Assembly: GCF_019739195.1 (NCBI RefSeq)
Contig: NZ_JAHHDS010000003.1
Coordinates: 1,054,001-1,118,000, forward strand
Length of the DNA stretch: 64,000 nt
Direction: 5' to 3'
Origin: Microcella sp.
GTDB taxonomy: Bacteria > Actinomycetota > Actinomycetes > Actinomycetales > Microbacteriaceae
Shown: in pieces, positions 58,000 to 62,726 of the stretch
Position numbering within the stretch: position 1 is the stretch's first letter
Layout: each line of letters starts with the position of its first letter
Translations under genes and position numbers: made by a program
Notes under the pieces: generated by a model
Seen by the model: the letters and a program-made list of their open reading frames with translations, nothing else
Database searches by the model: none
Told to the model about the DNA's origin: nothing

Positions 58000-59136
58000 C
58001 TACGAGACCCCTAGTCGCGCGGAGAGCACCATGACAGCGCTGCCGCGCATCACGATGTCGGCCCCGAGCGCGGTCATGCGCACCGTCAGTGCGCCATGGA
58101 ACTGCTCCATGGTGCGCTGACGGAGGGTGTCGACCGTCGCCTGGGCGAGCGGTCCTTCCAGCAGCTCGGCGGGGCCCGAGAGCACCACCTCGCTGAGGTC
58201 GAGGGCCCCCACGACAGGGGCGAGGGCGATGCCGAGACGCTCGCCTGCTTGGCGCAGCACCTCATCGCGCGGTTCGCCGGCGGCGATGCGGGCGAGCAGG
58301 CGGGGTACGGCGAGCCAGGTCTCGAGGCAGCCGTGCTTGCCGCACGCGCACGGCTCGCCGCCATCGGTGCCGACGACGACGTGCCCGATCTCGCCCGCCG
58401 CCGAGCGCGGGCCGTGCAACGGCGTGCCGTCGAGCAGCAGTCCTGCACCGACGCCGTAGCCCACCATGACGAGCATGAGGTCGCGCGAGGCCCCGCCGAA
58501 GCCGAACTCGGCGAGCGCTGCGGCGTTCGCGTCGTTGGCCACGATGACGGGCGCTCCGAGCGCCGCGGCAAGCTCGCGCTGCAGGGGCTCATCGCGCCAC
58601 CCGCGGTTGGGCGCGCTGAGCACCGTGCCGGTGCGGTCGACGACGCCCGGGCTGCCGATGCCGATGCCGAGCAGCGGCCGGTCGGCGAGGGCGACGAGCG
58701 CGGCTGCCAACTCGTGCACCGCGCGGGTCGCGGCGGCGCCGGTCAGCGAGCGAGCATCCACCTCATGGCGATGAAGAATCGTGCCGTCGAGATCGAGCAC
58801 GGCGCCGCGGAAAACGTCGGTGTCGCCGAGATCGAGACCGACGATGCGATGGCCGTCGCGATTGAGGTCGAGCAGCGTGGCTGGCTTGCCGGGGCGGTGG
58901 CCGTCGACGCGCGTGCCCAGCTCGAGGGCGAGCGACTCTCTGATGAGCTCACCGACGAGATCGCCGACCGTGACACGAGTCAACCCGGTCTCGCGCGCGA
59001 GGTCGGCCCGGCTCAGCGGGCCGGAGCGGTACAGCGTCTGCAGCACCAGCGAACGGTTGTGGGCACGGGCCTGCTCAGGCAGCACCTTGGCTCGCGGGCG
59101 CAGTGCGCGGCGCGGTTCCCAACCGTCGACATCCAT
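58000..59136 (-). CDS. ROK-family transcriptional repressor of the GlcNAc operon
   Basis: The 378 residues comprise an N-terminal winged helix (about 25-80: LVLQTLYRSGPLSRADLARETGLTRVTVGDLVGELI) and a ROK sensor domain with IVGLDLGDTDVFRGAVLDLDG, NDANAAALAEFGFGG and CACGKHGCLETW. It is the first gene of the ABC/GH3/NagK/NagB operon, so it likely represses the operon until a GlcNAc derivative binds. ATG 59136 or GTG 59142 could be the start. There is no ribosome site, and the 25-bp palindrome upstream reaches to within two bases of the GTG. Confidence 0.93.
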   Translation of the reverse strand: MDVDGWEPRRALRPRAKVLPEQARAHNRSLVLQTLYRSGPLSRADLARETGLTRVTVGDLVGELIRESLALELGTRVDGHRPGKPATLLDLNRDGHRIVGLDLGDTDVFRGAVLDLDGTILHRHEVDARSLTGAAATRAVHELAAALVALADRPLLGIGIGSPGVVDRTGTVLSAPNRGWRDEPLQRELAAALGAPVIVANDANAAALAEFGFGGASRDLMLVMVGYGVGAGLLLDGTPLHGPRSAAGEIGHVVVGTDGGEPCACGKHGCLETWLAVPRLLARIAAGEPRDEVLRQAGERLGIALAPVVGALDLSEVVLSGPAELLEGPLAQATVDTLRQRTMEQFHGALTVRMTALGADIVMRGSAVMVLSARLGVS

Positions 59137-59143
59137 TGTCACG

Positions 59144-59168
59144 TTTGTTAGTACACCTTACGAACAAA
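59144..59168. promoter_or_regulatory. Palindromic operator over the ROK gene promoter
   Basis: TTTGTTAGTA-CACC-TTACGAACAAA is an inverted repeat (TTTGTT.GTA arms, 9 of 11 matching). On the minus strand it contains TACTAA (59153-59148), a good -10 five bases before GTG 59142. A repressor bound here would block initiation, so the ROK operon is probably autoregulated and leaderless. Confidence 0.75.
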
Positions 59169-59331
59169 CATTCCGCAAGTCCTTTCCTCCCCCGCGTGGA
59201 GCAAACCGCGTGCCTGAACACAGCGAATACCCAACGAGAAGCGACATTCTGACCGTTGAATGACTGAACGCTGGGTGCTCTCGCCCGGCCCGCTTTGCAT
59301 CGCGCACCGCAGACCGACATCAGGAGTACCC

Positions 59332-59745
59332 GTGAATCGCACCACCATGGCCCGAGCCGCCGCGCCGCTGGGCGCAGCCGCAGCACTGCTCTCCACCCTC
59401 ACCGCCTGCTCGACGGCGGCCGAGGCCGAAGCCCCCGTCGACGCGAGCTACCGCGACGGCAGCTTTCAAGCCAACGGCACGTACCAGTCGCCTAACGGCA
59501 GCGAGAACATCATCGTCGTGCTCGAGCTCGCGAACGACATCGTCACCGACGTCGAGATCACGATCAACCCCAACAACCCGACGACTGCCAACTATCAGGG
59601 CCAGTTCGCCGATGGCATAGGCGACCTCGTCATCGGTCAAGACATCGACACCCTCGATGTGACGGTCGTGGCCGGCTCGTCGCTCACGAGCAACGGATTC
59701 CGCGAGGCACTCAACGCCATCAAGGCGGATGCCGTCGAGGGCTGA
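59332..59745 (+). CDS. FMN-binding domain lipoprotein
   Basis: The 137-residue exported protein has a signal peptide with lipobox LTAC (about residue 26), then an FMN_bind domain: YRDGSFQANGTYQSPNG, IIVVLELANDIVTDVEITINP and a C-terminal VVAGSSLTSNGFREALNAIKADA. The last segment aligns with the flavinylation motif SGATxTS, with Ser117 in place of the usual Thr acceptor. FMN would be attached there through a phosphodiester by ApbE, whose gene follows with a 17-base overlap. GTG 59332 has GGAG six bases upstream. It is probably an electron carrier on the outer face of the membrane. Confidence 0.9.
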   Translation: MNRTTMARAAAPLGAAAALLSTLTACSTAAEAEAPVDASYRDGSFQANGTYQSPNGSENIIVVLELANDIVTDVEITINPNNPTTANYQGQFADGIGDLVIGQDIDTLDVTVVAGSSLTSNGFREALNAIKADAVEG

Positions 59746-60664
59746 GGCCCGACCGAGCACCGTCGAGCCGAGCAACTTCAACGCGATCGGCGTGCCCTGG
59801 CGCATCGGGGTCGGTACAGCGGAAACCCCGACGAGCTCGCTCGGCGCTCCGCTCGCGCACGACGACCTCGAAGCTGTGATGGCGCGCATCGAGCAGTTCG
59901 ACCTCGACTGGTCGCGTTTTCGCGACGACTCGCTCGTGTCGCGCATCGCCCGCGCGCCGGGGTCATGGCGCCTGCCCGCCGACGCCGCACCCCTGTTCGC
60001 GCTCTACGAGCAGTTGCACGCGATGACGGATGCCCGCGTGAGCCCCCTCGTCGGTGCCTCACTCGAGCGGCTCGGCTACGACGCCGCGTACCGCCTCAGC
60101 CCCGCGGGCGACGCCCTGCCCGCCCCCAGCTGGGCAGACTCGATCGCGCTGCGGAAGACGGCAGACGGCCTCGTGCTCGACACTGTGGCCCCCGTGCAGC
60201 TCGACGTGGGCGCTGCCGGCAAGGGCTACCTCGTCGACCTCATCGGCGACCTGCTCGCGGCCCGCGGCGTGACCGAGACGCTCGTCGATGCGAGCGGTGA
60301 CGTGCGCGTGCGGGGCGAGCGCAGCATCCGCATCGCACTCGAGCACCCGGCCGACCCGACGAAGGCGGTCGGTGTCGCCGAGGTGACCGATGCCGCGCTG
60401 TGCGGCTCGGCGATCAATCGGCGCGCGTGGGGCGAGGGCCTGCACCACATCGTCGACGCCGTCACGGGGCGACCGGTGGCCGACGGCGTCGTCGCCACGT
60501 GGGTCGTCGCCGACAGCGCGTTGCTCGCCGACGGTCTCGCGACAGCACTGTTTTTCGTCGAACCGGCGCGTCTCTGCGAGGCGTTCGCGTTCGAGTGGGT
60601 TCGACTGAGCACGCACACCGGCCTCGAGGCGAGCGCCGGCTTTCGAGGGGAGCTGTTCGCATGA
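59729..60664 (+). CDS. apbE: FAD:protein FMN transferase
   Basis: ApbE transfers FMN from FAD onto Thr or Ser of partner proteins. The 311 residues show the core motifs LDVGAAGKGYLVDLIGDLL (Mg/FAD site), DASGDVRVRG (usual GGD is SGD) and the ending HHIVDAVTGRPVADGVVATWVVADSALLADGLATALF. No signal peptide or membrane helix is present, so it would be cytosolic, although its likely substrate is exported. Start ATG 59729 overlaps the lipoprotein gene by 17 bases, and the stop overlaps the membrane reductase start by four. Confidence 0.95.
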   Translation: MPSRAEARPSTVEPSNFNAIGVPWRIGVGTAETPTSSLGAPLAHDDLEAVMARIEQFDLDWSRFRDDSLVSRIARAPGSWRLPADAAPLFALYEQLHAMTDARVSPLVGASLERLGYDAAYRLSPAGDALPAPSWADSIALRKTADGLVLDTVAPVQLDVGAAGKGYLVDLIGDLLAARGVTETLVDASGDVRVRGERSIRIALEHPADPTKAVGVAEVTDAALCGSAINRRAWGEGLHHIVDAVTGRPVADGVVATWVVADSALLADGLATALFFVEPARLCEAFAFEWVRLSTHTGLEASAGFRGELFA

Positions 60665-62148
60665 GGGCACGAGTGGATGCACTGACCGGCCGCGTGAGCA
60701 TGTACCGCCTGGCGACGATCACCCTCGCGATCGTGCTTGTGCAGGCCGTGCTGTTCGCGTTTCTCGGAGCGATCGGACCCGACCCCTACGCGATTCTCGG
60801 CACGCTCGGCGTCGTGCTCGTCGCGACCCTCGGTGCCAACGAGGTCGCCGCCCGCCTCGCCCGGGTCGTGCCGCACCGCGAGTCGAGCGTGATCACGGCG
60901 CTCATCATCACCTGCATCGTGCAGCCGAGCCTCACGACCACGGGGCTCATCGCCGCCGCCGGCGCCGCGGTGCTCGCAGCGCTCTCGAAGTACCTCATCG
61001 TGTGGCGCGGCCGGCACCTGCTGAACCCCGCGGCGACGGGCGTGCTCATCGCGGGCATTATCGGCTACTACCTCGGCCAGGGCGTCGGGTTCTGGTGGAT
61101 CGCGACGCCTGCCCTGCTGCCCGCCGTCGCCGTTGGTGCTCTGCTTTTGCTCGACCGGACTCGACGACTCGATGTGGGGCTCGTGTTCATCGCCCTCACG
61201 ATCGTCATCATCGGCGCACGGCTGGTGCTGACGGGCACCGCACCACTGGGCGCTGTCGCTACGGTGCTGCAGCTGTTCCCCGTCGTGTTTCTCGCGGGGT
61301 TCATGCTCAGCGAGCCGCAGACCCTGCCGCCTCGCGACTGGCAGCGCTGGCTCACCGCCGCGGTCGTCGCGGTCGCCTTCTCGGTGCCCTTCGGGTTCGG
61401 ACCGATCTACACCTCGCCCGAGCTCGCGCTCGTCGTCGGCAACATCGTCGCGTTCGCGGCCTCGCGCCGCAGCGGGTTCTCGGTGCGCGTGCTCGAGCAG
61501 AGGCCCCTGTCGCCCGCTGCCACCGAGTGGCTCTTCGAGCCCTCGCGCCCCGTGCGATTCGACGCCGGGCAGTATCTCGAGCTGCATCTGCCTCACAAGG
61601 CCGACATCCGGGGTCTGCGCCGCACCTTCTCGATCGCCTCGGCACCCGAGCGCGCGGTCGCGGAGAGCGAGCCGCGTCTGGCCATTGGCATCCGCACTCC
61701 CGAGGGCGGCAGCTCGTTCAAGGCCGCGCTCGCGAGTCTCGAGCCCGGCACTCGCATCGCCGCCACCCAGATCGCCGGCGACTTCGTGCTGCCGCGCGAT
61801 GCGAGCATCCCACTGCTGCTGCTCGCGGGCGGCATCGGCGTGACACCCTTCGCGAGTCAGCTCGCGAGTCTCGTCGCGCGCGGCGAGCAACGCGACATCG
61901 TCGTGGTCGTGGTGCCGTCGAACCCCGACGAGGTGCTCTACCGCGACACGATCGAGGCTGCGGGTGCGCGCCTTGTCACGCTCACGCGCGACGAGCTGAC
62001 GACGGATGCTCTGCGCGAGGCCGTGCCCGACCTCGCGTCGCGCCGTGCCTACGTCTCCGGCCCTCCCTCGGTCGTCGCCGCCGCACGTTCAGCACTGCGC
62101 CGCGCAGGTGCGAAGCGCGTGCAGACCGACTACTTCGCCGGGTACTGA
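60661..62148 (+). CDS. NqrB/RnfD-like membrane domain fused to an FNR-type flavin reductase
   Basis: The 495-residue fusion has about seven to eight helices in residues 15-260. The segment RHLLNPAATGVLIAGI resembles the NqrB/RnfD NPAA helix, and LTGTAPLGA sits where RnfD has its SGATPL flavin site. The ferredoxin-reductase-like module (about 270-495) has LRRTFSIASAPE for FAD, RTPEGGSSFKAAL, LLLAGGIGVTPFASQL for NAD(P) and a final QTDYFAGY. There is no 2Fe-2S domain. It probably moves electrons from cytosolic NAD(P)H across the membrane to the FMN-lipoprotein. The three genes overlap, so they act as one system. Confidence 0.88.
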   Translation: MRARVDALTGRVSMYRLATITLAIVLVQAVLFAFLGAIGPDPYAILGTLGVVLVATLGANEVAARLARVVPHRESSVITALIITCIVQPSLTTTGLIAAAGAAVLAALSKYLIVWRGRHLLNPAATGVLIAGIIGYYLGQGVGFWWIATPALLPAVAVGALLLLDRTRRLDVGLVFIALTIVIIGARLVLTGTAPLGAVATVLQLFPVVFLAGFMLSEPQTLPPRDWQRWLTAAVVAVAFSVPFGFGPIYTSPELALVVGNIVAFAASRRSGFSVRVLEQRPLSPAATEWLFEPSRPVRFDAGQYLELHLPHKADIRGLRRTFSIASAPERAVAESEPRLAIGIRTPEGGSSFKAALASLEPGTRIAATQIAGDFVLPRDASIPLLLLAGGIGVTPFASQLASLVARGEQRDIVVVVVPSNPDEVLYRDTIEAAGARLVTLTRDELTTDALREAVPDLASRRAYVSGPPSVVAAARSALRRAGAKRVQTDYFAGY

Positions 62149-62254: not shown

Positions 62255-62303
62255 CTCGAAACCTCGGCCCGCCTCGGCGGGCGACGTGAAGGAGAACGAC
62301 ACG

Positions 62304-62726
62304 ATGAGCATGATCTTCGACCCGTTCCGCGAGCTCGACCGCGTCGCCGCGAACCTGCTCGACCGCCGCGAGAGCCCGCGCGTGATGCCGATGGATCTCT
62401 ACCGCGACGCCGACCACTACGTGCTGACCGCCGACCTGCCGGGCATCGACCCCGGTTCGGTCGACGTCGACGTCGACGGCCAGCTGCTCACGATCCGCGC
62501 CGAGCGCACGCCGCGCTCGCTCGACGGCGTGCAGTGGCTCGCGCGGGAGCGCGCCGCCGGAACCTTCCTGCGACAGCTCACGCTGGGCAAAGACATCGAC
62601 ACCGAGCAGATCTCGGCGCACTACGAGAACGGCGTGCTGAGCGTCATGATCCCGGTGCTCGAGAAGGCCAAGCCGCGCAAGATCGAAGTCGCGACCTCGA
62701 ACGAGCGCCAGGAGGTCTCGGCCTAG
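62304..62726 (+). CDS. Small heat-shock protein (Hsp20/alpha-crystallin)
   Basis: This ATP-independent holdase has 140 residues: N-terminal FDPFRELDRVAANLL, an alpha-crystallin domain (about 28-125) with YVLTADLPGIDPGSVDVDVDGQLLTIRAER, FLRQLTLGKDID and the ANGVLSV-type YENGVLSVMIPV, and a C-terminal IPVLEKAKPRKI. GAAGGAG lies ten bases before ATG 62304. CIRCE and HAIR-like operators lie upstream. Its TAG shares bases with the stop codon of the convergent P-type ATPase gene (CTAG). Confidence 0.96.
   Translation: MSMIFDPFRELDRVAANLLDRRESPRVMPMDLYRDADHYVLTADLPGIDPGSVDVDVDGQLLTIRAERTPRSLDGVQWLARERAAGTFLRQLTLGKDIDTEQISAHYENGVLSVMIPVLEKAKPRKIEVATSNERQEVSA

Follow-up and report, generated by a model that had tools for sequence, protein, structure and literature searches.

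The closest described relatives of the locus studied here are the flavin-based electron-transfer clusters that Meheust et al. (2021; PMC8238504) named "NQR/RNF-like", a class of 127 clusters, mainly in Actinobacteria and the Candidate Phyla Radiation (CPR), for which one-way transfer from NAD(P)H was proposed. The part of PMC11334425 that treats these systems describes their membrane subunits as lacking a flavinylation site and presents an AlphaFold-multimer model of a Ktedonobacter system, in which the flavin site of the lipoprotein adjoins that of the membrane protein. We analyzed a window of 64,000 nucleotides from Microcella sp. (genome of 2.88 Mb; assembly GCF_019739195.1, contig NZ_JAHHDS010000003.1, positions 1,054,001 to 1,118,000), and in it a cassette of three overlapping genes at 59332-62148, all in the + strand. 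They encode an FMN_bind-like lipoprotein, ApbE (the FAD:protein FMN transferase; FAD and FMN, flavin adenine dinucleotide and flavin mononucleotide) and a membrane protein fused to a reductase. The original prediction had called this minimal fused layout unassigned. It is already known: as the class is set out in PMC8238504, where it was named, and in PMC11334425, where it was modelled, the locus belongs to it. We consider it probable that the three genes form a self-contained exporter of the NQR/RNF-like type, with FMN added to the lipoprotein by a leaderless ApbE in the cytosol, before export.

Gene layout, class membership and distribution

The lipoprotein gene (59332..59745, + strand) starts with a GTG at 59332, preceded by AGGAG, and encodes 137 aa. 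It overlaps by 17 nt with apbE (59729..60664, + strand; 311 aa), which in turn overlaps through an ATGA with the fused gene (60661-62148, + strand; 495 aa). Residues 1-268 of the fused protein constitute the membrane domain (60661..61464, + strand) and residues ~269-495 an FNR-type FAD/NAD(P)H reductase domain (61465..62148, + strand), which ends in the terminal aromatic Tyr495. Coordinates, strand and overlaps all agreed with those first predicted.

The cassette has in common with the published NQR/RNF-like systems (PMC8238504; PMC11334425, in the parts devoted to them) an exported FMN_bind protein, here lipobox-bearing and encoded next to apbE; an NqrB/RnfD-like domain fused to a cytosolic, C-terminal NAD-binding domain (PF00175, just under the cut-off); a membrane part devoid of the conserved NqrB/RnfD covalent-flavin site, with a caveat at Thr149 (see below); and a host among the Actinobacteria. 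Unlike those systems, the window proteins fall below the Pfam cut-offs for PF03116, PF00175 and PF04205 and the lipoprotein motif is VAGSS; the leaderless state of the window ApbE may be a further difference. With RNF (RnfD/RnfG) and NQR (NqrB/NqrC) the cassette shares the membrane-subunit motifs NPA and F-[MI]-x-[ST]-[DE]-x-x-T and an FMN_bind partner, but it has no further Rnf or Nqr subunit, it has a short stretch between N122 and W145 and the reductase is fused on. The MsrQ-like flavinylation systems, common in Actinobacteria according to passages of PMC8238504, also lead from NAD(P)H to an extracytosolic FMN_bind protein, but through a heme-bearing MsrQ-like membrane domain instead of the NqrB/RnfD-like one found here. 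The cassette extends the known class to proteins lying under the Pfam cut-offs; since these cut-offs miss them, the published count of 127 is probably too low.

A search of 60 genomes (own genome included) with the fused protein gave some match in 44, in many of them to the FNR part alone; 30 loci were followed, 29 of them from other genomes. ApbE and the fused protein were present in 30/30 of these loci and the lipoprotein in 28/30; the order lipoprotein-apbE-fused gene on one strand was likewise kept in 28/30, the two misses lying at contig starts. Across the order, the membrane domain was detected in 46 of 347 genomes and 14 of 105 genera, and all 29 loci examined had the three genes in the same order and strand (three genomes were common to the 30-locus and the order-wide sets). 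A sample of 296 genomes of the phylum gave a full-length match in five (own genome included), one of which (L244) is from another class. The fused architecture beside apbE, for which a search across Actinomycetota had been proposed, was thus recovered, and the constancy of order and strand indicates that the arrangement is not due to chance. Note that locus L062 presented an apparent ApbE-membrane fusion, rejected because of a frame shift near the junction in a genome (G034) 86% complete and with 5% contamination, where sequence errors are likely. L062 was excluded from the alignments (A1, 29/30 loci; A2, 28/30, with truncated L067 also out) and its locus L027 was kept in the leader count (see below).

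The fused membrane-reductase protein

The membrane part presented ten hydrophobic stretches, matched by ten helices in a low-confidence AlphaFold model. Lysine and arginine residues were distributed 16 inside vs 1 outside, from which both ends are placed inside (N-in/C-in). The Pfam search with the window fused protein did not match PF03116 (NqrB/RnfD), and no PF03116 match was found in the own genome. Direct PF03116 matches at E<=0.1 were given by 4/29 family members (best E 3e-5), and the cassette proteins of genomes G149 and G041 exceeded the cut-off; to judge from sequence, the locus is from a branch of the class mostly missed by Pfam. Profile-profile comparison of the cassette family (29 members) with 12 RnfD/RsxD proteins gave a probability of 86% (E 4.7e-6). 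When seven further relatives were included it rose to 97.8% (E 8.7e-13; reversed control 0.8%), a value partly built in because four of the seven (L245-L248) had been chosen as PF03116 matches. These four were also found by the cassette profile alone, with E from 2.6e-14 to 7.3e-8 in a small set searched. Comparison with a single RsxD gave a probability of 4.8% (E 0.0084). The profiles support homology of the membrane part with the NqrB/RnfD superfamily, below the Pfam cut-off, as had been predicted. L245, L246, L247 and L248 are themselves RnfD-like ten-helix proteins with neither the FNR fusion nor the flavinylated loop and bridge the cassette family and RnfD; L248 also has a long in-frame extension at its C-terminus, which looks VCBS/ASPIC-like.

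The reductase part was also borne out. NAD_binding_1 (PF00175) scored 21.2 bits on the window protein against a cut-off of 22, with NAD_binding_6 matching weakly; PF00175 was matched at E<=0.1 by 26/29 members, and FNR-type structures matched this part of the protein.

The region where RnfD carries its flavin differed clearly. The extracytosolic loop that joins helices 5 and 6 is much shortened, with 18-22 residues between N122 and W145 in 29/29 cassette members and no [ST]GA[ST] there, whereas 8/12 RnfD/RsxD proteins had an acceptor-like D..ATPL 29-60 residues past FNPA, followed by more loop (the pattern missed the other four). A flavin in the membrane domain would thus probably be non-covalent, since most of the covalent-FMN loop of NqrB/RnfD is missing and the motif is absent. 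Trp145-Trp146 are invariant in the short loop; beside them, Thr149 is Thr in 26/29 members and does not fit the flavinylation motif. Another candidate, TGTAPL at residues 191-196, was discarded as a converted flavinylation site: in the alignment with RsxD/RnfD the acceptor falls in the helix 5-6 stretch, most of which is absent.

The lipoprotein, ApbE and the proposed site of flavinylation

The lipoprotein has a predicted signal peptide (residues 1-25) and a lipobox, LTAC, with Cys26; the N-terminus ahead of it is positively charged and then hydrophobic, and the export call was made by inspection of these features. PF04205 (FMN_bind) gave E 0.0052 and 17.9 bits, below its cut-off of 22. Among 21 lipoprotein rows (window protein entered twice), 18 matched FMN_bind at E<=0.1, the best at 9.5e-5. 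Foldseek returned the FMN_bind domains CbFMN4, SaFMN3, RnfG and CPE2226 among weak matches, with a lipoyltransferase in first place, IscU/SufU mixed in and no match at E<=0.001. No FMN_bind match at E<=0.001 was found in the own genome. The sub-threshold match and the lipobox agree with the predicted identity of an FMN_bind-like lipoprotein.

Passages of PMC12052999 give the ApbE substrate motif as D-x-x-[S/T]-G-A-[S/T], with Ser allowed as acceptor. The window motif is V-A-G-S-S-L-T-S, with GSS at residues 115-117, and when T-V-V-A-G-S-S is set against the published motif the predicted acceptor position is Ser117. The original prediction was right in this position, not in regarding GSSLTS as odd: Ser falls within the known motif (PMC12052999), and GSSLT occurred in 61/63 distinct related lipoprotein domains, with GASLT in one and one more outside the pattern. 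This count came from a profile built from such lipoproteins and hence biased towards them, and it does not include the distant L244 (SGAT). The Asp at position -6 of the published motif was retained in 16/63. Second copies of FMN_bind lipoproteins lie beside or near the cassette in L038, L039, L042, L043, L053 and L055, all with GSSLTS or GSSLTG.

The window ApbE matched PF02424 with E 1.6e-40 and 139.8 bits. Its HHxxDxxTG (239-247) and AD (267-268) are conserved: H239-H240, D243, T246, G247 and D268 were invariant across 28 sequences and aligned with solved ApbEs. It was the single ApbE found in the own genome. Leaders were sought with a home-made test (not SignalP) in which every possible start was scored for an uncharged hydrophobic stretch, requiring a start codon 3-28 residues ahead of it; the counts cover the best-scoring loci per search, with the group assigned by the search that returned the locus. 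This start-by-start scoring revealed no hydrophobic leader in the window ApbE. Scores did not exceed 0.5 in any of the 33 cassette ApbEs, of which one (L004) is truncated, and the 29 order-wide loci gave no ApbE leader. Of 44 further ApbEs from class Actinomycetes, 43 were leaderless (score <=0.85 or no candidate) and one was ambiguous (L072, at 1.47, near the lowest positive, L174, at 1.56). ApbEs of other classes in the phylum were leader-positive (>=1.56) in 25/30 cases and had none in 5/30; the 25 positives indicate that the test works. Hydrophobic stretches in L079, L085 and L140 were flagged by a looser window test and were not counted under the start-codon rule. In family f28, leaders were present in the six ApbEs whose loci were retrieved (L166, L171, L172, L173, L180 and L184) and absent from the cassette ApbE of L244; L244, which is from another class, carries the same cassette, in which the motif is the canonical DTVSGAT.

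The absence of an export signal from ApbE, the second feature singled out by the original prediction, was therefore confirmed but is shared with 43 of the 44 other Actinomycetes ApbEs. With GSSLT in 61/63 domains and the lack of leader so widespread, neither feature is peculiar to the locus. Among 27 Actinomycete FMN_bind loci, 13 had the FMN_bind motif and a hydrophobic N-terminus and 9/13 also an ApbE; these nine ApbEs were left out of the leader counts because their N-termini lie outside the profile match. Around the non-cassette ApbEs, a search with a narrow FMN_bind profile gave no match. Searches of open-licence papers brought up no description of leaderless ApbE across Actinomycetes.

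A leaderless ApbE beside an exported substrate raises the question of when and where Actinomycetes attach the flavin, and of whether a covalent-flavin protein can traverse the export machinery. In an alternative version of the same exporter, ApbE itself might be secreted by a route not yet recognised, such as piggyback transport or non-classical secretion, and flavinylate the lipoprotein outside. The ApbEs characterised to date are mostly lipoproteins acting on secreted targets, as stated in part of PMC12052999, which agrees with such a route; an ApbE working outside is nonetheless hard to reconcile with so wide a lack of leaders (0/33 cassette ApbEs with a leader and 43/44 in the class without, vs 25/30 leader-positive in other classes), and we consider this quite unlikely. 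Flavinylation in the cytosol is possible because truncated ApbEs are active there and the 7-residue motif suffices (passages of PMC12052999).

ApbE could also modify a cytosolic protein, with the lipoprotein not its substrate or unflavinylated and the cassette using free flavin. There is a parallel in Klebsiella, whose ApbE also lacks a signal peptide and modifies a cytosolic substrate, fumarate reductase (PMC12052999, in part), unlike the likely substrate here, an exported lipoprotein; the deviating lipoprotein motif points the same way. The fixed lipoprotein-apbE order over many genera, the near invariance of GSSLT and the pairing of canonical DTVSGAT with a leaderless ApbE in L244 argue against it, and we hold this explanation to be very unlikely.

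Several observations weigh against an NQR/RNF-like exporter flavinylated in the cytosol. The window motif deviates from the published one at three positions (Thr for Asp, Ala for Ser/Thr and Ser for Ala), and flavinylation at a GSS site is without experimental precedent. Besides the Klebsiella example, an early study cited in PMC12052999, as far as that account goes, reported that a Salmonella-type ApbE confined to the cytosol failed to rescue an apbE mutant. Passage of an FMN-bearing chain through the general secretory (Sec) pathway is unproven, and the window lipoprotein showed no twin-arginine motif. As to the membrane part, in addition to the partly built-in probability, a reverse search with the RnfD profile returned L245-L248 and no cassette member; the AlphaFold model, made from five close sequences, had a predicted local distance difference test (pLDDT) score <50 in this part, so that the fold search was informative for the FNR part only; and Thr149 may be the relic of a covalent flavin site. 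Finally, 16 loci had no apparent shared neighbour beyond genus, an Hsp20-like downstream gene excepted (starts read by eye, no family search).

Arg-Arg ahead of the hydrophobic part was seen in 17/36 lipoproteins outside Microcella vs 5/25 in Microcella (where a lipobox was lacking in two others); the rule is permissive, since some of these pairs precede the likely start, has no background and is suggestive at most. Twin arginines just before the hydrophobic part (e.g. RRRSFALLSG) were present in L264, L266, L267, L269-L272, L274, L275, L277, L280 and L064. These sequences are suggestive of possible export in folded form for cassette lipoproteins outside Microcella. It is conceivable, although we put it forward tentatively, that class Actinomycetes overall lost the ApbE leader and flavinylates in the cytosol, with export following through the twin-arginine translocation (Tat) pathway in lineages that have a twin-arginine signal and, in Microcella, through another route, perhaps Sec with FMN already on the chain. 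If true, this would reverse the accepted order of export first and flavinylation second.

Proposed electron path and neighbouring features

In the exporter that we favor, the cytosolic FNR domain would accept hydride from NAD(P)H on its FAD, and electrons would cross the membrane via the NqrB/RnfD-like domain, probably on a non-covalent flavin. Next they would reach the FMN, which would be joined by a phosphate linkage to Ser117 of the membrane-anchored lipoprotein and lie close to a mouth formed by Trp145-Trp146, and the lipoprotein would pass them to an outside acceptor, for which ferric iron, quinone and oxygen are candidates. The FMN would have been attached before export by the leaderless ApbE. 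The predicted transfer of NAD(P)H electrons out to FMN at the surface fits the domains and the both-ends-inside topology. As a special case of the same exporter, the cassette could be specialised in reducing ferric iron for uptake: six published NQR/RNF-like clusters contain a VIT1 iron transporter (PMC8238504, in part), but no shared iron-transport neighbour was apparent in the 16 loci (judged by eye, no family search), and we regard this specialization as rather unlikely. With its three genes in one small operon, the system is easy to test experimentally.

A scan for promoters and terminators gave no signal exceeding those of shuffled sequences. Upstream of the cassette, at 59143..59169, lies an inverted repeat, GTTTGTTAGTA-n5-TACGAACAAAC, located at the start of a divergent gene (58000-59142), presumably a ROK-type regulator from our reading by eye; the repeat is possibly the own operator of that gene, and a relation to the cassette could be conjectured at most. 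Downstream, the gene at 62286-62726 presumably encodes an Hsp20, also from reading by eye. Microcella shares such an Hsp20-like gene downstream of the cassette with one other genus (L060).

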